Assembly: GCF_033568475.1 (NCBI RefSeq)
Contig: NC_133123.1
Span: forward strand, 2,170,001-2,234,000
Direction of reading: 5' to 3'
Length of the DNA stretch: 64,000 nucleotides
Source of the DNA: Henckelia pumila
Taxonomy: Eukaryota; Streptophyta; Magnoliopsida; Lamiales; Gesneriaceae
In this document: in pieces, positions 6,189-60,423 of the stretch
Layout: each line of letters opens with the position of its first letter
Numbering within the stretch: position 1 is the stretch's first letter
Notes under the pieces: generated by a model
Database searches by the model: none
Told to the model about the DNA's origin: nothing
The model's input: the letters and a program-made list of their open reading frames with translations, nothing else
Program-made: the position numbers and the translations under genes

Positions 6189-8992
6189 GATGAGTGAATG
6201 ATTTTCTTGGAGAGATGAATCTGGCCTGGAATCGACGCAGCAATTGGTAATTATAACAAGTAATTAAAATGAAAGAAACATGAATTGGGGAGACATTGGA
6301 TGGGATCATTAATGTGTTTTAATTAGGAACAAGGAATTAGTGAGAACTTAGTTAGCTGTGACTCACCTATCTTCTTATTACAATTTGACTCTAAATTTCA
6401 TGAAATCATTGAAACATTTAAATACCAAGTCTAAGACGTGACGTAAAGATTTTTTTTTTTTTTTTTCTCTTTTTTTGGCCCCAAATGAAGCTCGTATTTA
6501 TCTAAAGAATATGTATTCTTACGTATTTAGTTCGAACAAATATTATATTGTCCAAATTAAAATATATATCAATATAAGTCAAAATCAAAAGTTTTGATTT
6601 ATAAATAAATCCCCATTTGTTTTTCCTTTTTTTTCGTAACAGCCTGCCACGACTAATTTCCAACCTCTTCCTTTTTCCTTTTTTCTTTTTGTTTTTTTTT
6701 TGACACGGAGTAGCATCCCAACGTTGAAATAATGTTATAACAAATAGATGAAAAATCAAACCAATTTTAACGAACTCAAGGTATATTTCTGAATCTGATC
6801 GAGAACCATCAATAGTTAATTATAGTTGCGTTCGATTTCGAACTCTAATTCAAATCGAATTCTATCCCAAAATTGTCGATTTTTGAAATTAAATTCGATT
6901 TTAGGTCAGGAAGTTTAAGCAGCTGGAACTAGGAATATAACATTATATATATATATATTTATAATATATATGTTTTACATGAACTTCATCATATTTAATC
7001 GAAATGGTGAATTAATTTTAGTCTTTTTTTTAATTATAGAAGTTGGGTTTGGGGGACCCTTGCACGTTGCTTATGAATGGTCATATATTGAGCTGGCTTT
7101 GATAGGCACAACTTACCCTCCTAGCTCCATAAATATATATGTATATTAAAATATTAATGTGGCCAAACCCAAAAAATAAATGTATGGGAGACGGCTATAA
7201 TTTGTTTGGAGTTTCGAATTAAGCAAATATTGCCATTGGTCTTTCGAAAATGACATCTCTTGGCATATTTATTCGATTAATCGACTTGACTCTCTTCAAA
7301 ATCGAATAAGAACCTTTTTCGACAAGAGTCGAGTTTATGATTGATTGTTCATAAATTTTCCAACTCAAAACTAATTTTAATAATATTATTAAAAGTTATT
7401 ATTTTATATTGCATATCTGCTGGTGTTGTTATTACTATATATTATTTATTACACAATACAAATATCGTGGTTCAGTTTATCTTGTGTGACCAGGCACCGA
7501 GAATAATTTAAAGATTAAAGTATCTACGAAGTCAACTCATATCCAATGATTTAAATAATTTCGTAAACAAATACAAGAAAAGGGTTAATGAGATATTATA
7601 TTAAGGATAATATTTAAATCATGTATTTAATAATTTGTATTTTTACATATATTTTTGACGTAACAAATTATGAGACATTAAATCTATTCGGGATAATACT
7701 CTACCCAAGATAAGAATAAAAGCGAGAAGAACTAATTGACTTTGGAACAACATAACTATGCGGTTTAAAAGATTCACAATCAAGCTTCTTATAATTATAA
7801 ATAATTAATTACGTCTAAAAGCGCACTTATTCAACCAATTTAATTGTGTTAATCTAAAACTCACGTAAAGAACGGGATATCCACACGTATTTTTTTTAGC
7901 ATTTTTGTATTTTAAGAAAACATGTAGTTCTTTCCAATGTTATACGTTAAAGAAATATTTGATATTACAGCACGATCAATCCAGGTTAACATATGCGAGA
8001 ATACAAATTCTCGTCAGACACTTTTACGGTTTAATTTTAGGAAATTGATTTTCTATTTGATTTATTCATTAAACCAATTTATTTATTTTTATTGTAAATA
8101 GAGATAAGGTTTAACCAGTCCAACGAATAAAAAATATCTGAAATCATCTCAATAAGAAACTACAAAAAATACTAATTTATAATTATTCAACTTCGAGCTA
8201 GGGAATCCTCGAATTCCCGTGAATTAGAATCCATCTTAAAACAAAAACATCTCACTGTCAGTGGAATAGATGAAATTACCTAGCACGAGCTCCTTTTTAG
8301 AAAATCATCGAAACATTTATTTGCCAGCGAAATATTAATTAATTCATGAGAAAATTCCAAATGTTAATGCTTTTCCATATATATGAGATCCACTAAAAAA
8401 AAATTATGAACTCGGCATATAAAAAGTAATATCCTATTAGATGCATCTTTAGGACAATAACCATGCCCTAAAGATTGAAACGAATTAATTGAATTACCTC
8501 TTTTTATAAAAAAACAAAAACAAAAAAGAGTGATAGATGGCATAATTACATGGGCTATTAAGTTACAGCCAAAAGGCCCATCGGCATTAAATTGTTCTTA
8601 AATAGAATCACCGAACTTTGAAAAGTACGTTTGGACCACAACCAATTCCTTACACGATTGGTTCATTCATACAACCTTTTTTTTGTGCAAAGTGAGCACC
8701 TAATCAACCGCCCCGGACCACATAAAAGCCCAACACCTTTAATCTCGATTTTTTCTTTTTTCTCATTCACATATTATTTTTACTTTTATAATGATTTTTT
8801 TAATTATTTATATAAAATTTTTAATACACATAAATGCAATTTGTCAAAAAAAAAAAACACATAAATGCAATGCTTTAAATTTCATTTAAGGAGGGGCTCA
8901 AAAATCATTTCGTTAAAATTACAAAGTCAAATATTTAATTCTTGCGTTAACTGCACGAAAATAAAAATATGATTCAATGATAAATTTCTCAT
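6189..8992. other. Intergenic spacer upstream of the HIPP gene
   Basis: AT-rich, with poly-T and pyrimidine tracts around 6450-6475 and 6660-6700 and short TA runs near 6940. I see no gene, RNA gene or bounded repeat here. The first few hundred bases presumably carry the HIPP promoter. Confidence 0.5.
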
Positions 8993-9000
8993 TTGATTAA

Positions 9001-9772
9001 AGAGTAAAAATTATTTTGGTACATGAACTATTGATAAAATATCAAATTGGTACACGAACTATTGAAAATGTTTTAATTGATATATGATCAAACTCAAAAG
9101 TCAATTTTGCCCTTTACTTAAATTGTTTTTAAGTTGAATATTGTTATTAAATTGATTAATTGAACCACATACATATTTTTGTCTTTTAAATTATTATATT
9201 AATTATAATTGTAAATATAAATTCATATTTACTAATTACTATACTATAAAAAGAAGATTATATATCATGTATACGAAAAGTATTCAACGTAAAATTTGTA
9301 GATCATAAATGAAAAGACACACACATATATATCATTTTTATTTTGATTAATATAAATAATAATATTATAACATAAATAAACCTAAAAATATCTTTTATTA
9401 TATATTTTTAATATATATTATTTTTGAATATATAATTTATCAATCGTTATATATATATATATATATGTGTGTGTACATGTTTGTATTAATTAATATTTAC
9501 AATGTTTCGTACAATAAGTACGATCCCATGTTTATAATATAAAATTTAAATAAATATAAATTTATGCTTGTAATTGTATTAGTAAAATAATTTTGAAAAA
9601 TAAAATGTGTATCTATTTTAATTTAACAAAAATATTAGACTTTAAAATAATGTAGATAAAGGGTAAAATTGACTTTATGAGTTGATTATGTACCAATTAA
9701 ACCATTTTCAATAATTCACGTATCAATTTGATATTTTACCAATAATTTGTGTAACAAAATGAATTTTACTCT
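9001..9772. mobile_element. Non-autonomous TIR element with 8-bp TSD (hAT-like)
   Basis: About 120 bp at each end are imperfect inverted repeats: AGAGTAAAAATT at the left and AATTTTACTCT at the right. They are flanked by the direct repeat TTGATTAA at 8993-9000 and 9773-9780. The interior is AT-rich and encodes no transposase. An 8-bp duplication is typical of the hAT superfamily, which is the basis for the tentative class. Confidence 0.75.
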
Positions 9773-10027
9773 TTGATTAAATGCTTATTCATCCCCCGGT
9801 ATAGATAACAGAAAACTAAAGCGGAAAAATAATGTAACTATTGATAGTTGAAAAAAAGGGGGAAACTAAATTGAGAAAATGTGATAAAATGAAAGTCTAA
9901 CGGGAGGAGTAACAAGAAAAAATTATGCAAAATAAAGTTGGACAGTTGAAAATCGAGAATTAAATCGAAAAATACGGTAGAATGAGAAGCTAAAATAAGG
10001 TATTATATATTTCCACACACAAATTTA

Positions 10028-11314
10028 GGGAAAAATAGCATTTTAGTCCTGTATGTTGGCTTCATTTTGGTTTTGGTCCTGTATATTGGCTTGTTTTGGA
10101 AAAGATCCTGTAACTTTATTTTTATTTTGGATTTAGTCCTACATGTTGATTGTTTTGGTTTTGGTCCTATAAGTTGAATTAATTTTTTATTTTGGTTCTA
10201 TACAAAGTTATGTTTTGAAAAAAAGTACAGGAATTTGGATTTTTTGGATTTGGTCCTATAAGTTGACTTGTTTTTTTATTTTGGTCATGGAAAAGATACA
10301 GTTTTGACCAAATTAAGCACGGTTAAGTTAGAATAAGCGTCTATGATTTTTATTTTAAAATAATAAATTAAATTTAGAATTTAGAATTTGACTTTCCAAC
10401 TTCACCGCTTAAGCTTTTATAATAAATATTTTGTTATGATTTTATAATTAAATAAATTAGGTTTAAAATTTAGATGTTGACATTCTAATTATTTTTTAAA
10501 ATAATAATTATGTTCTAAAAGGTACAATAACTTGATTTTTTTTTTGTATTTTTCCTCCGTCGCCGAAACTGGAGGGAGCAGCAAAATTTTGCTTATTTGC
10601 AGTGTTCTAAAAAGCACGCTGAAGCGGCGATTAAGCGTGATAAAGTGAAACATACCTAAAAAGCTCTGCTTTCGAGAAAAGCGAAACCATAGTTGAGAAA
10701 GATAAAAAAAATATGTTAGAGTGTTACTTTTTAAAAGAATGAAAGTATGTTTTAAACATATTTTTAGTTTTTTAGTTAATTTTGTTAATTTAGGTTGGAA
10801 CTTATTTATATGATCATTAATAGGTGCTAAGTGGGCGAATACTTAGTGCCAAATAAATAAAAAAATCAAAGTTACACTTGAGAACGATATAAATGAATGT
10901 TTGTTTGTTACTTTTTAAAAGAACAAAAGTATGTTTACATTTAATACATTAAATTAACATATTTTAGATTTTATTAAATTATTTAGATTAAAAAAAGTTT
11001 AAGCGTAAAAAAATATTTTTTTATTAGTTAATTGTAATTATCTCAAACCAATAAGCAGATAAAACATGAAAGAATAAAAAATATTAATTACAAAAATAAT
11101 TAGAGATCAACTTCTAAATTCCAAAACATGATAACATACAGGACGAAAACCGAAAAACAAACCAACTTACAGGACCAAAACCAAAATAATCCAACATATA
11201 GGACTAAATCCAAAAAAAAAAATCGAGTTACAGAATCTTTTTCAAAACAAGCCAACATACAGGACCAAAACCAAAAAGAAGCCAACGTACAGGACCAAAA
11301 TGCTAATTTTTCCC
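10028..11314. mobile_element. Non-autonomous Mutator-like element (MULE) with 9-bp TSD
   Basis: The element begins GGGAAAAATAGC and ends GCTAATTTTTCCC. Its terminal inverted repeats are over 200 bp long (about 10028-10290 and 11110-11314) and are built from repeats of the word TTTTGGTCCTGTA. Exact 9-bp direct repeats ACAAATTTA flank it at 10019-10027 and 11315-11323, the Mutator hallmark. No transposase is present. The interior around 10550-10700 (GTCGCCGAAACTGGAG onward) has a different, GC-richer composition and could be captured DNA, but I cannot name a source. Confidence 0.88.
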
Positions 11315-11375
11315 ACAAATTTATATATGTCTTCTGTTGTTGTATATATGTAATTTTAATATGATTGTAGAGTTT

Positions 11376-33350: not shown

Positions 33351-34854
33351 CAGAGAAACAACAGACTTAGCTTAAAGCAAGATCAAGGTAATATGTTTAG
33401 CAGCCGCAACAATAACAAAATTGACCATGTTTGATTTAACAACCAGACATCTTATCAGCACCGACTCTGAAGAAGAACGAGCCTGTAAAAGGAAAAGCTG
33501 TTAAGCTACTAAACAGTAACTATATATAACTACAGTATCTACTGTGTTTTAAACATTAAAGAGGGGAAACATCAAAAAAGGCTTAATTGTGCTTTCACTG
33601 CATTCATAAACAGTATTCACAAATAACTAGGAAACGTCAAGGAGAATCGCTTTTAAATGGGAAAGGAGTAAAAATTTGCAATGCTCAGATAATAGATATC
33701 ATGATAAATAGAAGTAGCGTAAAAAAGAATCAGCTGACAGATAGCATTGCTCAAGTTCTCTCAAGTTCCAACCCGCAACAAACCACCAAATATAAGATTT
33801 TTCATAAAATAATCTACAAAACAGTCAAGGGTCTAAATCTCAATCTGAAGGACGAACTCGAATTCCTACATACATACTCGAGAGCTACAACTCAAAGCTG
33901 CACAAAACTTTATGAAATATCAATTGGAATGAGAAACAAAGATTGACAATTTTCATCAAGAAAAAGGTAAAGAAAGACGGTTATAGGCTTATAGCACAGT
34001 AGAGAATAGTGTGAGTCACATAACTCCAAAGTCCATACAGTTACTTTTCTCCCAGAAAAGAGGCTTTTAGCTAAATTATAAAATCAACCCTACTTCCAGA
34101 AAACCTGAAAAGATTCAACCCAGAAAAATAAAATTCAAACAGGGAATCAAGGACCACCAGAGAAAAAGTAAAGATGAACTGAATCAAGTCAGTTCCTGAC
34201 AAATGCAGCAGTTTTATGCTAACATGCAGTTACTTCACGTTCACAAAACAAGCCATTCATCAGAACACGCAATTAGAGGGAAATATAGAGATAAAAATCG
34301 GATCTTGAAAGAGAAATCCAACCAGATCCACAATCAAAAAACCATTTGCACATATGAAGAGAATCTTGAAACCAAAGGATTCAGAACCATTAATCAAGAA
34401 CCCAAAAGGCAGCGAGCTTGAAAAGATGGAAAAAAGTAAAAGCACCTAAGATTAGCAATGATCAGAGATTGGAGCTTAGGTTTGGCAGTGAAAAGAGTAT
34501 GGTGGAAAGATAAAGAAACTGCCCCATAGCCTTGTTTCTTATTGTTGGTATTTTTTTGCTGCGATGACAACTAATAAGTGGAGGAGAGAGAGACACAAAG
34601 AGCCATTGAATGGAAACTAAATGCTTCAAAAAAATAAAAAAGAAACACTGGGGCCTCTCCATTTCTGGATAAACTATTAGGCCAATCACGACACAGAGTG
34701 CAGAGATGATGCGGTCAAACTACAACTGAAAAGGCACAGTCCAAAATCAAACCAATGAACCCAATTTTTTTTTTCCTTCTCTGATTTTTTTTTTTCCATC
34801 TTTCTATGAAAACTAATATGCGTGTACGGTGTACGTGAGATGAAACGATAGCTA
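33351..34854 (-). promoter_or_regulatory. Kinase 5' leader (probably intron-containing) and promoter
   Basis: About 1.5 kb between the kinase ATG and the copia insertion. CT/GA-rich stretches near 34560-34600 look like a transcription start region, and splice-like signals between suggest a leader intron, but I cannot fix exact sites. Plus-strand frames here have no family signature. Confidence 0.4.
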
Positions 34855-35049
34855 TGAAGAACTTTGTGGTGAATAAATAATTTTATTATCATGCTTGAAG
34901 GTATAAATACAGATTTATAATTTTTAGATAGTGCAAGATAAGCACAAATAATTACCTAATCTTAGATACAAAATACAAGAAAATAAATCACAAATCTAAT
35001 CTATATAATTAAAAACAAATAAACAATATATGTGCAAGATATGCTAACA
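34855..35049 (-). repeat. Copia 3' LTR (left)
   Basis: 195 bp, TG...CA ends. It pairs with the right LTR with about nine differences, nearly all transitions. Confidence 0.93.
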
Positions 35050-38000
35050 GGCCCCCTCAATATGGAGGTTCAGAAGAAACACCAATCTTGGAAGTTAAGG
35101 AACGAAGGCGAGCACTAGACAATGGCTTTGTAAGAGCATCGGCAAGTTGATCATCCGAGGAGACATGTGAGACGCGCAACTTCGAAGTTTGAACAAGCTC
35201 ACGAACAAAGTGATAGTTCAGAGCAATATGCTTCATACGAGAATGAAAGATTGGATTTGCACACAAATAGGTGGCACCAATGTTGTCAGTGTAAAGTGTA
35301 GGAACATCCGGAACAGTAACCCCGAGCTCAAAAAGCAAAGAACAGATCCAAAAGAGTTCCGCAGCCCCCGAAGCAAGAGCACGGTATTCCGCCTCAGTGG
35401 ATGAGCGAGAAACCGAGCGTTGCTTCTTCGAACTCCAAGAGATAGGATTGGGACCGAGAAAAATAACATAAGCAGCTGTGGAGCATCGGTCATCCGGATT
35501 ACCAGCCCAATCAGAGTCAATGTAACCATGTAGCGAGAGAGAGGCATGCGGCCGAATCCGAAGACTATAATGAAGAGAACCATTGAGATAACGAAGCAAC
35601 CGTTTGACAGCACACCAGTGGTGTTCAGAAGGAGCATGCATAAACTGAGATAGTCTGTTGACAGCAAATGCAATATCGGGCCGAGTAAGAAGCAAGTATT
35701 GAAGACTCCCAACAACCTGTCTGTAACTTGTAGCGTCAGCGAGTGGAGCACCATCATGAAGGGAAAGTTGTGTGCTGGTGGCAAGAGGTGTCTGAACTGG
35801 CTTAGATTGTTGCATATTGAAACGAGCCAGAATATCAAGAATATATCTTTTCTGAGACAAAAGAAGACCATCGGACGCAGGAAGGACTTCAACTCCAAGA
35901 AAGTAGGACAGAGTACCCAAGTCTTTGATGGAGAACCTAGAAGTCAGTTTTGCAATAATAGAATTGAGAAACGGAACATCATCACCTGTAATTATTAAAT
36001 CATCAACATACACCAAAAAATACACAGTGTGACCCTGACTGCGAAGAATAAATAGAGAAGCATCAGACTTAGAGTTAAGAAACCCAAGGGTGAGTAAATA
36101 ATGACGCAATTCCTGATACCAGGCACATGGCGCCTGTTTGAGACCGTTAATAGCTTTATGAAGCTTACAGACATGATCTGGGAAATTGTAGTCTACAAAG
36201 CCAGGAGGTTGTGCCATAAAAACTTCCTCGTCAAGAGTACCCTGAAGAAAGGCATTGTAGACATCTAGTTGACGTAACGACCACCCGTAGTGAATGGCCA
36301 GGCTTAAGATTACACGGATAGTGGCAGGTTTGACCACAGGGCTGAAGGTATCATGATAATCAAGACCAGGACGCTGATGAAAACCTTTGGCAACCAAACG
36401 GGCTTTGAACCAATCTACCGAGCCATCGAACTTGCGTTTAATGCGAAAGACCCATTTACAACCAACAAGATTCTGAGTGTGATGAGGGGGGACAAGGTCC
36501 CATGTGCCATTACGCAAAAGAGCATCAAATTCATCCGACATCGCGGTGTGCCAACGGGGGTCCCGAATAGCGGCAGTTACACATGTGGGCTCACAGTCAA
36601 GAGACAAGGGAGAGACATGGAATGAGTATTTGGGATTGGGTTTGAAAATTTTGTTTTTAGCGCGGGTGGTCATAGGGTGGGTAGGCTGCGTGGGTGGAGA
36701 ATTGCCGGTGTTAGGTGGTAAAGGAGCAGGGCGAGCGAGCTGTTGATCATCACCAGAGACAATATGAGAGGAGACATCTACATGTGGCGGGACGATGAAG
36801 ACAAAAGGCGCAGTGGAAGTGACGGGGGAGGTGGGACACGGGTTATCATGATGAGGGTAAGGGAAAATATGTTCGAAGAAGCGGACATGACGGGAAATGA
36901 ACAATTTATGAGAAGAGAAGTCAAGACATATGTAAGCACTCTGAGTAAGAGAATACCCAAGGAAGATGCAGGTTTGGGATTTTGGGTCTAGTTTATGAGT
37001 GGTATAGGGGCGAAGCCAGGGGTAGCAGAGACAACCAAACACACGTAGCTTAAGAAGATTAGGGGGTTGATTAAATAGTTTTGTGAAGGAAGACATCATG
37101 GATAGATTTTTCTTAGGCATACGGTTGATAAGGTAAGTTGCAGTGGCGAAGGCAAAGGGCCAAAGAGTAAGGGGAATGGAGGCTTGATGGAGGAGGGTGA
37201 GACCGGTTTCGACGATGTGACGATGACGACGTTCGGAATAACCATTGTGTTCTGGAGTATGAGGGGGTGTGGTGAGATGAAAAATTCCATGAGTCGCCAA
37301 GAACGACTTGAGACCCAAAAATTTACCACCATTGTCAGTGTAGAGGGTTATGATTTTACGATTAAGTTTAGTTTCAATGAGAGACTTGTAGCTTTGGAAA
37401 ACAGATAAAACATTCGATTTGCGCCGGAGGGGATAAAGCCAAATGTGTAAAGTGATCTACAAAAATAACATAGTACTTATATCCATCCGTAGAAACAACC
37501 GGAGAGGTCCAAACATCAGAGAAAATTAATTCAAGAGGAGCAGCGGAAAGTAGAGTAGAGTCAGAAAAAGGCAATTTATGACTTTTATTAATGTTGCAGG
37601 AATTACAATGAAAATTAGAAAGTGAACTGGGAGACAGTGATAAAACCCTAGAGGACACTAAATGACTGATAATAGTGGGGGAGGGGTGACCTAGGCAGGA
37701 GTGCCACAGGGGCACCGACTCTAAGGATGAAGAGAAGGCGCGTAAGGAGGATGCATTAGTTGGAGAGGAAGGCCAAAAGTAGATGCCATTCTTACATGGT
37801 CCTGTGAGGAGCAGATCGCCCGTACTGAGATCCTTCGCCTGGAAGCAAGAGGGAAGAAAAGAAACAGAAACATTGTGGTTAAGACATAACCGTGCAACAG
37901 AAATTAAGTTTTTAGCCATAGAAGGAACACAAAGAACATCTGTGAGTAAGAACTCAATGGACGAAGTAGGCAAACGAAGATAGCCAATGTGTGAAATAAA

Positions 38001-39200
38001 CAAACCAGAGCCATTGCCAATGACAATGGAATCAGAGCCACTGGACGGAGAGTGGAGGGACAAATTTGCTAGATCAGTAGTCACATGGTGAGAAGCACCA
38101 GAGTCGAGGATCCATTCCGAAGAAGCAGGAGTAGCAATGGGATGTGAGGCAGTATGAGCCTGCGGCCCAGTGGACGGACAAGGGAAGGCAGCTGCTGGTG
38201 GTTGCGGAGTCCAGGGGAGATATTGAAAATCCGGACAACACTTGGCAGAGTGACCTTGAACACCGCATAATTGACAGCGTCCTAAGTATGTCTTAGGAGA
38301 AACAGGCGCGGCTGGGCGATGGTTCCAAGTGCCTGGTGATCGCTGGTCACGAGGGCGATACGAGCCAGACGGACGAGAGAAACCCGAAGCAGAGCCCAGT
38401 GGTGCAACCTTTGCGGAGCGTGAAGTGGCAAGCGATGTGGCGGGGCTGCTCGGACTGTGGTTGCGGATCATGAGTTGGGCTTCAAAAGTGAGTAATTTCT
38501 CATGTAATTCATTGAAAGTGAATGGAGTATCACGGGCTTGAATTGCATGAGAAAGTTCCTTGTAGCTGTCGTCGAGTCCATGAAGAATTTTGAGTGTAAG
38601 ATCTTCAGTATCAACCGGAACATTCATAAGCGCAAGGGCATCGACATGAGTTTTGATACCTTGCAGATACTCCGTGATAGATTTAGAACCTTTGATTGGA
38701 TTGGAGAGGTGGGATTTAAGTTGCATGATGCGACCTCGACTCGGGGCAGCATAAGTTTTATCGAGAATAAGCCAAGCGTCACGGGACGTGCTTGCAGAAG
38801 CAATGAAGGGTATAATGGTGGGAGAGAGAGCACCAATAATGGCGTTAAGCAGGAGTTGATCTTGACGAATCCAAAAAGAGTAATCTGGATTGGGAATTAA
38901 GGTAGCGCCGTTGGTGATGGTTGGGGATGGACATGGCTTCATGCCGTCAATGAAACCAAGGAGGTCATAACTAATTAGTAGGGTATGAAATTGTAGACGC
39001 CAAGCGGAGTAATTTGTGGATGTGAGTTTGAGGGGAACTTGGACAGCAATATTAAAAGAGATGAGGGGAGGAGACTTGTCGTTAGTTGGAGGAGGCGGGG
39101 GAGGAGTTTGGGTGGATTCATTGGAGGCCATGGTTGTAGCGTGAGGAAGAAGAAGAAAAAAAAATTGGCTATGGCGATTAGCCTTGAGGCTTTGATACCA

Positions 39201-39395
39201 TGAAGAACTTTGTGGTGAATGAATAATTTTATTATCACGCTTGAAGGTATAAATACAGATTTACAATCCTTAGATAGTGCAAGATAAGCACAAATAACTA
39301 CCTAATCTTAGATACAAAATACAAGAAAATAAATCACAAATCTAATCTGTATAATTAGAAACAAATAAACAATATATGTGCAAGATATGCGAACA
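39201..39395 (-). repeat. Copia 5' LTR (right)
   Basis: 195 bp, TG...CA ends; the primer-binding site follows immediately inside the element. Confidence 0.93.
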
Positions 39396-44440: not shown

Positions 44441-47400
44441 CAATTTTTTTAATTGGATCGGTTTAAATTATTGAACAATAATGTTTATTATTAAGCCTTT
44501 GTTAAATTTAAATTTTTTATACATGTACTGGCGTTAACCGTTGATATTTCCTATAAAACTAAAACTTTGATTTTAATTAAATTTTTATTTTAACTCAATT
44601 TTTGGTATCGAAAAAAGGTCTAAAAAATTAGTTAAAAAATATATTTCTGAACTTTAAATTATATTTTTAAAATAAAATATAAATGACACAAAAATTAGGA
44701 TTTTATTAAGTTAAAAAATTTTATTTTACTAATTATTACAGTTCTTTGTGGACTTCGAACAAAAAATTTTCAATTATTTTTCTTTATATATATCTCACAC
44801 TCAAACATAAAGTTTTAAAAAAATTATAACATATAGACTTGTCAAAAGAGCGAAACTAATAGTTATTGCTGAAAATTGGTAACTCCAATACCGCCGCATA
44901 TTGTCGTCACTTAATATGTGATCCCCCAAATGGTTGATTATTTTTCATAGATCTTGAAACGTAAATTGCTCTTTGTATATTGGATGTTGGGATAAAACCC
45001 AAATACGTCCTTAAAGTTTCTTAACTTTCCCAAAAATATACTAACACTTTATTCGTTCCTAATTTTGTCTCTTATTTAACAAATAGTTTCCTTAATATGT
45101 CCCTCAAACTAAAAATTGCCTATAATACCCTTATTCTAACAATTATAATTAATATTTTCTCTGGGCTCAGAAAATGGTATCAGAGCCTAGGTAATTTTAT
45201 TCAGACTTTATATTATTCATTAAATCATACTTTTCTTTGTTGAGGAAGAGATTTTCAACAAACCATGGATTCAAACGAGAGTTTGAACCAGAAAGATTTC
45301 ATTTATATGAAATCCCATAAACAAGTGAATCTATTTAAAATAGATTCTTTACAACAGAACTTAAAGAGACTTAGGTCTTTTATACTCTCTGAAGAGATTA
45401 AGAAATATGATTTCTAATTCTCAATTTCTAGAAATCACACCAGATTCCTCTAAACTCTCCGGAGATCTTAGAGAAATTCAAAAGACGGTACACTATTACA
45501 GCAATCAGCTGTATGAAATACCTCGGCAGATTGGAGAAATCCTTAAAAAACAAGAATAAATTCTTGTAACTCTAAAGGATCTTCAAACTAAAATTATAAA
45601 TCTAGAACATACTTCTGGTTCTAGCTAGAAAGGAAAATACAGGAGGAAAGTTACCACTCTCGTTTGGTACCGAACCTCTATTACATCAGAGAGGTAAAAC
45701 CAAAATGGTTCAAAGACCTTTAACTGATGATGAATTGATGATTAATCTTATAAAGACAGTATCAGAGAAAAACACTATCTGATGACTACTTTAAAAAGAT
45801 TAAATCTCGAGGATCTACAAGATCTTGCGGATTCTTTTTCGAATCTTAAAGTAGTAGATCTAAAAATGAATTCTCCTGATAGTGAACAACCCATAGGGAA
45901 TCCCCCGAGATATGTGGTTAAAACAGAAGAACCACATAGTGAGTTCCATGTTGGAAAAAATTCACATCCAACAGGAACCAAATCAAGAAGTAGTAATATA
46001 CCAATACATCAAACTCCTTATGGAAAAACCGTTTTAGACCCGATACATCCTTATGGGGTTATGTTAAACCTGGATGTTCTGGACTTTAAAAACAGAGAAG
46101 ATCTCATAGAATATTGGACATCAGCCATGAGAATAGCAGCAGGAACTTTAGATCTCAATAAAGAAGGATTTATCAAACTTCTGGAAATGAGTTTAATGGG
46201 ATCTGTCAAAATAGCTTGGGAAATGACCATGCCAGAAACCAAGGAATCAATATTAGCAGGAGAATCACTTAGCGAGATTGGAGGAAGAATGGCCACCCCT
46301 TTTAAAGCACAATTCATAGGGGTAGACTATTTCAATAATCAAGATACAGAGAAAAAAAGAAGATATACTCAAGCTCTGTATAGTCTCGAGTTACATGATA
46401 TCTGTTTAGTTGATGAATATATTATGTTATTCACCAAATACAAATGGAAATCGGAAGTTGAAGAAAATGTAGCCATTCAGCTATTTTTCGCAAAAATGTC
46501 AAGCCCCTGGAGAGAAATGTTGATAAAAGAATACGTTCTAGGTAATCTTGATACTTTGGCAAGACGCGCCTCTTTTTTGAAAGGAAAATTGGCGGAATGG
46601 TGTCATATGGCAGCATTACAGAAGAACTACAAGAAAATAAGGGGTATTAACAAGCATACTCCTCTATGTTGTAGAGAAAATGATCTCCCTACGGTTATAG
46701 GGAATAAATCACAGGGATTTAAGAGGAAGAAATTCAGAAATAATCCCTACAATAAAAGAATAAAAAGTTCTTGGAAACCAAGAACATTTTGATCCAAACA
46801 AAAGGCCAGATCTTATAGATCAGGTAGAAGAAGTGGACCTACAAGAACATTCCCAGCAACAAACTCATCACAAGGCAGGGGAAGAACACCATCTAGAAGA
46901 ACTTTCAGAAGAACTCATACGAGAACAAGTGAAAGTTTCAAGGATTGCAACTGCTGGACATGTGGAGCAAGAGGACATATATCTACAAACTGTCCAGAAA
47001 ACGAGAAAAAAGGATTTAAACTCTTTGAAGCAACACCAGATATGGATGATGCGGTATTCTTTCAAGATCTAGTCCAAGTATATCAATTTGAAGATATTCC
47101 CCCAGATGAAAGTATATACGAAGAAGAGATATTGTTTAAGCAATATGAATCTGAAGATGAATCAGAATCAGAATAAAGAAGAAGTGTTTCGACACGAAAC
47201 ACATGAGAGTTTGGCTGGATTTTTTAGTCAAACCACGATATCTCATAATATGGTCCAAAGGATTATGAGAGAAAATCCAACATTACAGAAGTACCAAGGA
47301 TTTTCGGCAGGACAAGTAGAGAGGGTCTTAGGAAACCTAGGGCTAAGACAAAGAAGACATCATTTGATTTACAAAGTATCCAGAAGGGAAATGGCAATCT

Positions 47401-50400
47401 CGATGGAGTTAACAAGTAATCAAATAGAGATGCAGTTAATTCCTTTTGAAGAAGTAAGAGAGGAATTGCAAAAGATAAAAAGTGAGGTAGCAAGAACGAT
47501 GTCTTGGATTCATATTGGAGCAATCCAAATAATGATCAAGGCAAGTTTTAAAGAAGGAATAGATTCACCCATAGATATCGTAGTATGTGATAAAAGAATG
47601 AGGAATATCCAAGATGCTGTTTTGGGTATGATCTCAGGAAATCTATGTGCAGGAAAAATTGTAGGAGTTATTTATCCAAAAATAGCCTACAATTTAGCTG
47701 ACTGAGACTTTAGTCGAGCCTTGACGTTGCATCAAAACTTCAAGGAAAAAAGATTAATGAAGGAAGGTAATAGACCATATTCTATTACTTATCAAATTTT
47801 ATATTCTCTTTCTAATACGCACCATTCTGAATTATTTATTAAAAATGAGTTTATTGAAATTCCAGAAATCTTTGGAAAAGTTGCTCAAGCAATATACCCG
47901 AAAAGAATCGAGTTTTCTTTAATTCAGAAAATAGACATTCAAATACAAGATAAACCGGTTCTATACAGAGATCTGAAAATAGAACCCCGAAGGTTATATT
48001 TCCAAGGTGACCGAATGACAAGTCGAAGGTGGGAAAAATCTCCTATTCAGGAAATTCCACTAGAAGAAAAGGAGTTTTCAATAATAGGAAAACTTAGATC
48101 TCCAGAAGGATGGAAAAAAGTCAAAATAGTATTCGAAATTACAAGTCACAGGAACCAATTTCCTTGTAACTCGATTTACAATTTAGAGCAGCAAGTAACA
48201 GGAACTTACCAAGGATTAATAAATATTGGAGAATTGAAAGTTCAAATAGTGGAATTCCAGGAAAAGAAGTGGATCAGCTCATTTTTGGCCTAGAGTTTCT
48301 GGAGGACCATAAACCATGGAAATGCCTTAAAAAAGGAATAGAGTTTATGGCAAAAGAAAAGACTTGGAGGATTCAATAAGAATTCTACGAGATGGAAAAC
48401 CAAGAGAATTGGATAAGGAACAATCCCTTAATCAGATTCGAAAACTCTGTTTACAAACAGAGGAAGAAGCAATTGTTGAAATTAGTAAGTCATGAACATG
48501 ATTTACTAGAACGCATTGAAGAAGTGGAAATGAGTAACCATACTCTACCTTCTGAGACCTTAGGAAAACTAAAGGTAAATAGTCTTAATCGTATTACTGA
48601 GTTACAAAACAGTCTGTTAAAAATGGCAGGGCCATTTAGTAATTCCTTTAAAAAATGACAACAAGTCCTTTCTCCATATACATTCCAATAGGGATGTTGT
48701 ATGAACAATATAAAGCTGAATATTTTGCAGCTTATATTGACTCGGGAGCAGAAATTTGTACAGCAAAAAGAGGAGTCTTCCCTGAAGAATGTGAAGAAGA
48801 ATTGCCAAAAATTGCTGGACGAGATTTCTCTCGAAGAATTTTAATTCTTTGCAAAGGAATAAAACAAGCAGAGATCCTTATAGGAGGAGCAGGTCAAACA
48901 CCTTGGTACAAGGTAAAGACACCACCAATCTATTTCCATGATACAAGAGCTGATATCCTGTTAGGAAATAACTTTTTACAAATGTTTAAGAAGTACACAC
49001 AAGAAAATGAGTCAAGAAGACTTATGTTCACTACAATTTGTGATCATAAAATTATCGTTCAATGACTCAAGGTTGCTTTTTATCGACAAATACCGATAAC
49101 ATTTCGCAGCCAGTGTGGTGATAAAGGACAACTTTTTCACCCAAAAATGAAAGATCCAAGAAGGTTTGGAGAAACCATGTTGAAAATCACAGATATATAG
49201 AGTTAGAAAATAAGGTATCCCTTGAAGATGTCAAAAAAAGGCTCAAAGAAAGTTACAACGAGCATCCTTTGGCATGGTGGGATAGAAATCAACTCAAAGC
49301 CAGTCTTACTCTAAAAAAAGGCAAAGAGTATAAATTCGTCAGATATAAGCATGTCCCAATGAACATAACAGATCAAAGGGATATGAGAATGATTATCAAG
49401 GAACATTTGGACCTTGGTCTAATCAAAGAAGGAGTTTCACCATATAGCAGCCCAGGTTTTCTGGTCAGAAATCATGGTGAAATAAAAAGAGGAAAACCCA
49501 GGTTAGTTATTAACTACCAAGGTATTAATAAAATCCTGGAGTTTGATGGGTACTTCATACCCAGTAGAGAACATCTAATTAGCTATGTACGAAATTCTAG
49601 AGTGTTCTCAAAATTTGATTGTAAGTCTGGATTTTACCAGATTCGAATGGAAGAAGGCAGTAAAAAATTCACAGCCTAGCTTCTCTACACCACAAGGACA
49701 TTATATCTGGAAAGTTATGCCTATGGAATTGGCTAATGCACCCCAAATATTTCAAAGAAAGATGGATAATCTTTTTAAAGATTATTTCAACTTCATGTTT
49801 GTTTATATTGATGATATTCTTATAGCATCAAAAAACATAGATAAACATATTAAACATTTAAAGATTTTCTCAAAAATCTGTACACAAGAAGGACTGGTTT
49901 TATCTGAAAAGAAAGCAGTCATAGCAACAAGGAAAATTGAATTTCTTGGAATTGAGATTGATGAAACTGGAATAATTCTATAACCTCATATTGTGGAAAA
50001 AGTAAAGAATTTTCCAGATAAACTCAAAGATGTAAAACAACTCCAAAGTTTTCTAGGAGTAGTTAATTTTGCAGGGATGTTCATAAACAATCTGGCAATG
50101 TATAGAAAGGTGTTTAGTCATTTGTTAAAAAAGGATGCAAGGTTTATATGGACCGATGAACATACTAAAGGGGTGAACCAATTAAAGGAGATATGTAAGA
50201 ATCTCCCAAAAATGGCTATACCCGTGGATGAATATGATCTGGTGTTATTTACAGACGCCAGTGACGAATGGTGGGCAGAAGTTCTTACTAAGATCACTCC
50301 GAATGGAGAAATACCATGCAGATACTGTAGCGGTCTTTTTTCAGAATCTGAGGCTATCAGATGGCATATCAACGAAAAGGAATTTTATGCAGTTAAAAGG

Positions 50401-51989
50401 GCTTTCGAAAAATGGCCATTATTTTTACTTGCTAAAAAATTCACTTTGAATGTTGATAACACTCAGGTAAAAGCTTTCCTAAGGAATAAGATTGAATCTA
50501 AACTTGAGAAGGCTAGGTTATTAAGATGACAAGCTTTATGTCAAAATTATATTTTTGATATTGTTATTATTAAATCTCATGAAAATATTCTTGCAGATTT
50601 CTTAACAAGAGATGGAAGGCAGTGACGTAGATTCCATCATGAAAATGTAAAGGCATCTCAGGGAACACCTTGGGTTGCTTCAAACCGAGTTCAACCAGCT
50701 TGTCATAAGTGCCGATATGGCGGACAGGTTACAACAAGCTGATCGGATCAAAGTATCCAATCGAATCACAGGATGTATGCAAGCTCAAACTCAACTATGG
50801 GCTGCTATTCAAGGGCCAATTATGCGTGCCATAGAAAAACCACTGGTTTCTCAAAAACAAGAAATACAGCCACCAGTTGTAAAATAATATGTTGAGGATT
50901 CTAATACTCAAAAAACAAGCGCTAATCTATCATCAGCTTTTGATGATCTAGATAAAGCAACAATTGATGAGGATAACTCATCAAATCAACCCTCCGCTTC
51001 TGGGGTAAAAGAGGAAGAGATCAATCTTAGGCCCCACACCGACAAGGGCAAATCTAAGATTGATACTAACCCAGCTGTAATTTCTCCATTTCAGGTATAT
51101 CAACAAATATGGGAGAAATTAAGTACAAGAAATGAAATCAACCCGATCACTTGCAGGGTTGATGTTGCAGGAATATATCCAAGGGTTTGGCTAAAAAACA
51201 ATGTCAATCCTAAGGATGTAAAGCTATGGTATGAATTTGGGGATCTAGCCTCAGTTTATACAACTTCACCAGGCTTCCAGGAAATATCACAACTACCAAA
51301 ATGGATTCAGAAAGCAGTCCAAGAAACATGGTCAAATAATGATCATTTGTCCAGAGGAGATGTGCTCGAGTTATACTTCTTTAGTGCAGCTCCAGAACCA
51401 ACAGGAAAATGATCACACGAGCCATTTCATTTCATCAATCTAAGGAGACCTGACATGAATAATCAAAGATTTATCAAGGATCCTATATCTGAAGAAATAC
51501 CATTGGTGTCCACCTTTGGAGAAAATGAAATTTCAACCAGAAGGGCATGAGGTATTTGGGTTTGTCTCACCGAGATGGATAAGGTCAAGTTTTCGTTCAA
51601 ATTTTATCAAAATTCTGTGAACGGATCATTCCTGTTAAACACAATGACAGGAAAAACTACGGCTTTTGCGGAAGAACTCTTCGAAAAGAAGAGAAACTTT
51701 TTGTGGAACAACAAGCTGTCGAGGAGTAAAGAAACTCGCCGAAAATTTTGTAACATGGCTCATATCGGAAGATGGTCAGAGAATACCTGTCCAGAATGTC
51801 CAAACCAGAAGGAGCCAGAATTCGGAAAAACCTTCAAACCCCGAACGGATCGAAAAAATTTTTCCGAGACAAGCAAAAGTGGACAGGGACCACCAAAACC
51901 GCATTTTCCCAGGGGCCCACTACAAAAGCAAAAGATGCCCCGACAACAATAAAGAAGGCATATGAGGAGAATAAATCCAAAAGAAAAAG

Positions 51990-52061
51990 TCAAGCATGTG
52001 ACTCCTCCACTAGTAAAAGATGACATCGGGCATGTGACTCCCACTAGCAAAAGATGTCATC
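51990..52061 (+). repeat. Direct repeat upstream of the fossil viral promoter
   Basis: GCATGTGACTCC and ACTAGTAAAAGATGAC recur about 33 bp further on as GCATGTGACTCCC and ACTAGCAAAAGATGTC. This lies 75-145 bp upstream of the TATA box, where caulimovirid promoters carry enhancer elements. Confidence 0.7.
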
Positions 52062-52135
52062 AATAATGACATAAAGAATTCAAGACAGCTGTAAGATTCT
52101 CTGAAGTTTCTCGGTGAAACGAGTGGAACTTCGGC

Positions 52136-52143
52136 TATAAATA
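52136..52143 (+). promoter_or_regulatory. Fossil pararetroviral TATA box
   Basis: TATAAATA after the transactivator region and before AATAAA-type signals (about 52196 and 52335). This is the position of the pregenomic RNA promoter in Caulimoviridae. Confidence 0.65.
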
Positions 52144-52943
52144 CAAGATTTTAAGGAAGCTGAAGACATCGATCATTTTCTTCAGTTTTCTTACAAATAA
52201 AACATTGTAATATTTCTCTTTCTATTGTATTAAGTTTTACTTTTATGTATTTCAAGAACAAGGCTACTATGAGTAGCTAAACAAGTTATCTCCTCCTCTT
52301 CAAAGGAGGTTGATTTATGTAATAATATGTTGTCTGAATAAATTTCCGAAGCTCTTCTCTATCATGTTATTTTATTTAAAAAATTAAGCTTTTGCTATAC
52401 GCCCTAAGGTAGGAAACGAAATAGGGCTGTGCTAGCTGCTGCTGAAGGAGTCAGTGTCAGGAACCATCGGTTGCGATCGCGTGGTTTGGTTGTGAGGAAC
52501 CTGTAAAACCCGGTGGACATAACCCGACAACAGTGTGGTCAAAGAGGTATTCTGCTTTAATTTACTGACGAAAGCATGATGGGATTAAATCTTTAAATTT
52601 TAAATAGGAAAATAAAGGGTAGAATGAACATTATTTAGTTTTAAGGACAAATTCAAGAAACTATTTAATGAATCAGGGATATATTTGGAACATGAAAAGT
52701 GAAAGAGATATAATACGAAAAATGGAAAAGATACAGGGATATATTTAGGAATTGTCCCTTGGATGTTTATACGGTCTTATTTGATTTTAATATCATTTGA
52801 AATTACTTAGAATTGTTGATGTAAGTCTTTTTTTAGGTTTTAGTATAAGTTTATTAATTAATTAAAATAGAATGTTAATTGAACATAAGTATTTGATTTG
52901 GTATAAATGTATAGTTATAATTTTTTTTAATTTTAGTTTAAGT

Positions 52944-53073
52944 GAGTGTTTGCAATTACTTAAAAAAAATTTGATTGTTAGATTTTGGCTTAAAAATCAT
53001 TTTTTATGTTTTTAAACCCAAATTATGTGTTAAGTTATGCTTAATTTAATTAAAATTCCAAAGCTAGTCATAT
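52944..53073. mobile_element. Half copy of a MITE also present at 60.1 kb
   Basis: GAGTGTTTGCAATTACT and the following ~130 bp (TTGTTAGATTTTGGCTTAAAAA, TTATGTGTTAAGTTATGCTT in part) match the reverse complement of the right half of the element at 60083-60423. The other end is missing. Confidence 0.65.
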
Positions 53074-60082: not shown

Positions 60083-60423
60083 AGGAAGTGTTTGCAATAA
60101 ATTGTGTTTTTTAGAAGTGATTAATTTATAAATTATAAAAAAGTTAAGAAAAATCAAAAGTTGGTAATGTTTGAAAACAAATGTGAAAATCTAAAAATCA
60201 AAGTTGGATAGTGTTTGATAAATAAGTTATTAGAGTGATTTTAACAATAACCTTCATATTAAAATCACTTTTGAAGAATCATAATCACCACATGACTAGC
60301 TTTTGGATTTCAATTAAGTTAAGCATAAGCTAACACATAATCTAGGTTTAAGGAACACACAAAAATATTTTTTTAAGCCAAAAGCTAACAATCACTTTTT
60401 TTTAGTGATTGCAAACACTCCTT
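60083..60423. mobile_element. MITE with GGAAGTGTTTGCAAT ends
   Basis: AGGAAGTGTTTGCAAT (60083) and ATTGCAAACACTCCTT (ending 60423) are inverted, with further complementary segments inside (GTGATTTTAACAA / ATTAAAATCAC near the centre). A half copy lies at 52944. Target-site duplication is not clear. Confidence 0.7.

Follow-up and report, generated by a model that had tools for sequence, protein, structure and literature searches.

A repeated, probably Mutator-type transposon carrying a near-complete caulimovirid genome in Henckelia pumila

The window analysed here is a stretch of 64,000 nucleotides from the 885-Mb genome assembly of Henckelia pumila (C4:2170001-2234000), and the locus under study occupies its positions 44989-52758. 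The locus consists of a decayed genome of a caulimovirid (a plant pararetrovirus), enclosed by terminal inverted repeats (TIRs) and flanked by a target site duplication. Very probably, this unit is a copy of a DNA transposon of the Mutator type (Mutator-like element, MULE) that is repeated in the genome and non-autonomous, with the near-complete viral genome as its cargo.

Ends and interior of the unit

The 9-bp sequence TTGGATGTT abuts the unit on both sides, an exact match, as had been claimed in an earlier note made from the letters of the window. On the forward strand of the window it occurs at these two places only; its reverse complement occurs once. Immediately inside are the two arms of the TIR, colinear from the outermost base. 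Their local alignment score is 108, a value that none of 4939 random pairs from the window equalled, while the highest score among 2000 resampled pairs was 79; in a global alignment, 119 of 165 aligned columns are identical (72%). The inverted repeats proposed in the earlier note are therefore real and aligned from the first base, although a length of 170-180 bp fits better than the 150 bp or so given there. When 5390 non-simple 9-mer direct pairs with a spacing of 150-12000 bp are ranked by arm score, the pair flanking the unit comes 28th, and the top 25, by position, are all located within three other foldback or TIR elements (1261-2972, 10019-11323 and 8992-9782). When the outermost 26 bp of the left arm are compared with the rest of the window, the four best ungapped matches coincide with the ends of two foldback elements, 1276-1520 and 2713-2957. 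For the right arm the resemblance is weaker: the top score elsewhere, 18 of 26, is reached both by one end of these elements and by a place inside the virus.

Pieces of the interior were compared one by one with Pfam profiles, applying the curated cut-offs. The domain order is coat protein (CP) domain, zinc knuckle, movement protein (MP), A3 peptidase, reverse transcriptase (RT) and RNase H (Table 1). The CP domain, the second MP piece and the first RT piece score below the cut-off, the other domains above it. CP precedes MP, with the zinc knuckle between them. The Cavemovirus and Solendovirus layout places CP before MP and a TAV gene after RNase H. The set of MP, CP, aspartic protease, RT and RNase H is of the caulimovirid type, the CP match with the reservation just given, and so are the tRNA-Met primer site and the structured leader with its short open reading frame (ORF). 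Named relatives of the MP piece occur at 48-66% identity in Sesamum, Paulownia and Dorcoceras, while the 25 relatives of the RNase H piece range from 50 to 83% identity; those with names are at 59-80% (about 59-66% for Sesamum and 71-78% for Rehmannia). The named relatives of both pieces suggest a host in the Lamiales. Scans of viral contigs with the RNase H piece, the MP alignment and the TIR pattern revealed no relative, NCBIfam profiles gave weak matches only, and the comparisons led to no genus assignment. The ORF piece downstream of RNase H stands where a TAV gene would be expected; no TAV gene was recognised after RNase H with Pfam profiles or among the relatives of this piece. Of the 53 ORFs of at least 50 amino acids listed for the domain scan, 34 were scanned (all 32 of at least 60 amino acids and two shorter ones), and none contains a transposase or integrase domain. 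In sequence, the interior amounts to a single caulimovirid genome, near full length at about 7.4 kb.

The primer binding site is a motif found in caulimovirids and in long terminal repeat (LTR) elements alike. Starting close to it, the left end of the viral sequence pairs with a segment near the right end of the unit in a leader duplex of -64.0 kcal/mol. None of 1000 resampled pairs is as good, and the best of 137+137 control segments reaches -43.9 kcal/mol. Since the ends of the insert pair as one leader, they are former neighbours in one viral circle, which was opened close to the primer site. The earlier description of a single caulimovirid genome starting at its tRNA-Met primer site agrees with the position of this site, the domains and the leader pairing. 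According to a passage in PMC5902531, the minus strand of caulimovirids keeps a discontinuity at the primer site.

Table 1. Features of the unit and its borders (window positions; pgRNA, pregenomic RNA)
Feature	Position	Strand	Basis and remarks
Left target site duplication	44980-44988	+	TTGGATGTT; identical to 52759-52767
Left terminal inverted repeat	44989-45159	+	Alignment to right arm; inner edge ±~20 bp
tRNA-Met primer binding site	45177-45189	+	Sequence TGGTATCAGAGCC; at or near start of viral genome as inserted
pgRNA leader hairpin, descending arm	45181-45269	+	Pairs with 52266-52356
Coat protein piece (Caulimovir_coat_dom)	45746-46792	+	PF22909, E 2.5e-5, 25 bits (below cut-off of 27); ends in stop
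Zinc knuckle piece	46793-47176	+	PF00098, E 3.1e-4, 21.1 bits (cut-off 20.8)
Movement protein	47073-48293	+	PF01107, E 5e-20; second piece 8e-4, below cut-off; one stop inside
Aspartic protease piece	48652-49065	+	PF02160, E 1.5e-12
Reverse transcriptase	49125-49983	+	PF00078, E 1.8e-5 (below cut-off) and 2.2e-21; two frames
RNase H region	49984-50619	+	PF17919/PF17917; one stop inside
Downstream ORF piece	50888-51412	+	Relatives in Sesamum and Perilla; no Pfam match
Putative TATA box	52137-52144	+	TATAAATA; presumed pgRNA promoter
Leader hairpin, ascending arm	52266-52356	+	Pairs with 45181-45269
Short leader ORF near hairpin foot	52269-52280	+	ATGAGTAGCTAA; shunt-type arrangement, as in a model in part of PMC5902531
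Right terminal inverted repeat	52579-52758	-	Arm alignment and GC drop; inner edge near 52576-52590
Right target site duplication	52759-52767	+	TTGGATGTT; identical to left one

Copies of the unit and their target sites

The left end was compared with the whole genome and the best 40 of 1051 candidates were scored, which leaves 39 places other than the window. Their left ends are 94-97% identical, with alignments that run into the virus and start at most 16 bases from the first TIR base (exactly on it in 17 of the 39). Left end and expected right end were retrieved for all of them. The element starts with GGGATAAA, as in the window, in 37 copies, and the right end is present at the expected distance in 18, giving units of 7.7-8.1 kb; all 18 contain the MP and RNase H pieces at the expected offsets. 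An exact duplication of 9-10 bp flanks 13 of these 18 two-ended copies, and all 13 duplications are different. When left and right flanks from different copies are mismatched, an exact 9-bp match is found in 0 of 342 pairs and a match of at least 8/9 in five (9-bp register). The left-end and joined-arm queries together yield 66 places more than 25 kb apart, only part of which were checked for both ends.

These copies show that the unit travelled as a whole to many places, generating a 9-10 bp target duplication at each. Two readings had been offered in the earlier note, and copies with different duplications were to tell them apart: that a MULE had moved a whole viral genome, which the 13 copies bear out, and that viral DNA had been joined into a MULE, which they contradict as the whole story. 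In the latter account, viral DNA would have been end-joined into a foldback MULE at the window site, never to move again. The anatomy of one copy alone allows this, and a part of PMC10377300 counts break repair as one of two hypotheses on caulimovirid integration that are widely held. With the same TIR-virus joint present at dozens of differently flanked sites, and with distinct duplications around 13 of the 18 two-ended copies, a nested insertion that never moved has next to no chance of being the full explanation and is refuted as such; it survives as the founder event. A chance duplication combined with chance arms is ruled out by the arm-score controls, the ranking of 9-mer pairs and the mismatched-flank control.

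Two pairs of copies deserve separate description. Copies 9 and 21 (L018/L050 and L038/L069; C3, 169.79 Mb and 104.79 Mb) have flanks that are identical over the approximately 250 bp compared per side, despite which their units differ by about 2.3-3.5%; possible causes are gene conversion, units having changed places or a fault in the assembly. Copies 31 and 33 (L079 and L081; contigs C79 and C3) agree at 100% over 561 bp of left end and flank, so that they are probably a duplicated contig or a recent segmental duplication. Such pairs are what would be expected if host segments holding the unit had been multiplied by segmental duplication or ectopic recombination, without transposition. Against this stand the 13 distinct duplications of 13 copies and the cross-match of flanks from the 18 copies and the window, in which both flanks are shared outright by copies 9 and 21 only (copies 6, 10 and 22 have partial repeat similarity of 74-96% in their flanks). 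As a general account, multiplication with host segments is very improbable: it is contradicted for at least 13 copies, and may explain the two duplicated pairs.

For one copy a counterpart of the empty site is present. Joined together, the two flanks of copy 22 match one uninterrupted repeat stretch elsewhere, at 79% over 276 bp and with a single duplication unit. Of the empty-site check proposed in the earlier note, this diverged paralogous site is the part that succeeded; an empty site for the window copy was not found in the retrieved DNA, no whole-genome search having been made. The same note had also called for a MULE frame without the virus. None was found among the best 40 of 695 candidates scored, in which no alignment spans both joined arms. 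Frames without the virus would probably have outranked the half matches at a likeness above about 80%, while more diverged ones could be missed.

The window contains several other repeats. The TIR element at 10019-11323 is MULE-like: its ends are GGGAAAAAT, and its 9-bp duplication, ACAAATTTA, is exact. Region 1261-2972 holds two 245-bp foldback elements with GGGATAATT ends and (TA)n on their outer sides, within a larger inverted duplication. A further TIR element (8992-9782) has GAGTAAAA ends and a duplication of 8-10 bp around TTTGATTAAA. A Copia LTR retrotransposon is located on the minus strand at 34854-39395, its 196-bp LTR-like repeats being 95% identical. From about 200 bp to the right of the unit, an inverted repeat pair more than 80% alike (52963-53071 and 60292-60403) belongs to another repeat family.

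Divergence and mode of spread

The window copy and the 18 two-ended copies were compared over four pieces, a sample of 19 that favours copies close to the window. Their mean pairwise difference is 3.4-4.1%, with ends and interior alike. The neighbour-joining tree is a star, with an internal length of 0.011 versus a terminal length of 0.333 and a mean distance of 0.038. Half of the distance between copies, about 0.019, corresponds to about 2% divergence per lineage. This agrees with the decay of the virus in the window, where four stop codons in 1402 codons give 0.017 substitutions per site (95% interval 0.005-0.043). At a substitution rate of 7e-9 per site per year, the mean copy divergence places the burst at about 2.7 million years ago. 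Because the terminal length greatly exceeds the internal length, the spread is a burst from nearly one founder, after which each copy decayed independently.

Stop codons are mostly private to single copies: 5 of the 7 stop positions in RNase H (the other two are common to seven and to three copies) and 10 of the 12 in MP, from which it follows that the RNase H and MP frames of the founder were largely open. Relative to a neutral spectrum, the ratio of non-synonymous to synonymous changes (N/S) is 1.07 for singletons and 0.91 for shared sites in RNase H, and 0.71 and 0.81 in MP. Purifying selection was considered and leaves no clear signal in these two genes (N/S 0.71-1.07), which have drifted in a nearly neutral way.

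The star-shaped tree and the private stops also fit an intact master copied many times, as would be the case if the unit had passed through a hybrid viral stage. In that account, the unit circularises with its TIRs abutted and goes through transcription and reverse transcription like a pararetrovirus, carrying the TIR pair in its leader just before the primer site, and the MULE transposase integrates many copies of the viral DNA. It overlaps with the transposition of a viral cargo proposed here, and the two differ only in the copying route. The anatomy lends it some support: with a promoter-like site at the right end and a primer site that lies just inward of the left TIR, the unit could yield a full pgRNA only as a circle or a tandem. 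No circle-junction sequence was seen, no completed search having been aimed at one. The N/S values do not help to decide, since nearly all branch length is terminal; near-neutral ratios are thus expected under both models and cannot separate a passenger from a former virus. We consider it unlikely that the hybrid once replicated as a pararetrovirus, using MULE ends and host transposase as its integration system and leaving behind the burst of integrated copies. If true, this plant DNA virus would have been an integrating one, with a life cycle in two phases.

Mechanism and relation to known systems

The preferred reading, a MULE-type transposon with a viral cargo, starts from a founder event in which linear viral DNA, open at the minus-strand primer site, would have been joined between two MULE inverted repeats. 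The whole unit then transposed to many sites, making a 9-10 bp target duplication each time. The moving enzyme would have been a MULE transposase supplied in trans, because no transposase was recognised within the unit itself. The MULE transposase domain PF10551 is abundant in the genome, with at least 150 scored of 1188 candidates. The break at a hairpin tip, by which the earlier note explained the symmetry of the unit, has lost ground. The arms are 72% alike and the copies about 96% alike, so the inequality of the arms predates the burst and a hairpin-tip break is not needed; arms already unequal in the founder would pair poorly (-36 kcal/mol for the arm duplex versus -77 for a nearby foldback element).

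Target duplications of MULEs range from 9 to 11 bp, and the duplications of the window copy and of 13 of the 18 others are exact at 9-10 bp. Maize Mu makes one of 9 bp, as given in a passage of PMC2774946. With 170-180 bp and two unequal arms, the TIRs are at the weak end of what qualifies as long. Could the unit instead represent a new class of pararetrovirus-like retroelement, with inverted ends and an integrase of its own and no relation to MULEs? The lack of an identified transposase partner and the limited likeness of the arms would suit such an element. The termini of the left arm, on the other hand, resemble those of other TIR elements in the window, one neighbour likewise has a 9-bp duplication, and no integrase or transposase domain was found in the 34 of 53 ORFs scanned, which together make a new class improbable.

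Several observations weigh against the transposition of a viral cargo by MULE ends. A transposase with the TIRs of the unit was not found, none being tied to it among the 150 scored of 1188 candidates, and membership of the MULEs would rest on duplication length, long TIRs and terminus resemblance, the last clear for the left arm only. The duplication length was picked per copy within 8-11 bp, and the remaining 5 of the 18 two-ended copies have an 8/9 match (two), an A-run with identical flanks (two) or a poor match (one). The right end is missing from its expected place in 21 of the 39 copies. Ten of these were inspected: three have the right end beyond a later insertion (two with exact duplications and one at 8/9, by eye), while in the other seven the sequence of the unit is interrupted, partial or not continuing. 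For copies 12, 23, 31 and 33, a right end in the same orientation is listed at a distance of about 9.7 to 18.8 kb from its left counterpart. Since only the 39 best of 1051 candidates were taken, the sample is poor in divergent copies and subfamilies.

The closest parallel is Teratorn, a medaka element that encodes its transposase internally, whereas none was recognised inside the unit. According to parts of PMC5601938 and PMC10175614, Teratorn resides in the genome of its host as a fusion of the cut-and-paste transposon piggyBac with the entire genome of a DNA virus, an alloherpesvirus; it is 180 kb long and still capable of transposition. A passage in PMC10175614 names it the first example of such a fusion. 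The unit shares the mobilisation of a virus genome, here near-whole, by transposon ends, but differs in its MULE-type ends, its length of about 7.8 kb and its reverse-transcribing plant virus. By analogy, the unit would work like Teratorn without being a member, its partners being different and no transposase of its own having been recognised. Pack-MULEs usually carry fragments of host genes, whereas the cargo here is a near-whole virus genome. Like the unit, Pack-MULEs and other Pack-TYPE elements are non-autonomous TIR elements with foreign sequence, as described in part of PMC8277862. With endogenous caulimovirids, as portrayed in sections of PMC10377300, the unit has viral gene content, decay and a plant host in common; those are described as integrated by break repair or in a retrotransposon-linked way, often at (TA)n, whereas copies of the unit have transposon ends and 9-10 bp duplications.

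No report of an earlier MULE-caulimovirid unit was found in searches of openly licensed full texts. The integration mechanism of endogenous pararetroviruses is described as speculative in a part of PMC10377300, and the mechanism of integration and propagation is called unknown in a passage of PMC10175614. The locus offers a concrete and testable mechanism, in which a virus is transposed as cargo between MULE ends, and this would supply a missing way for fossil viruses to multiply in plant chromosomes.
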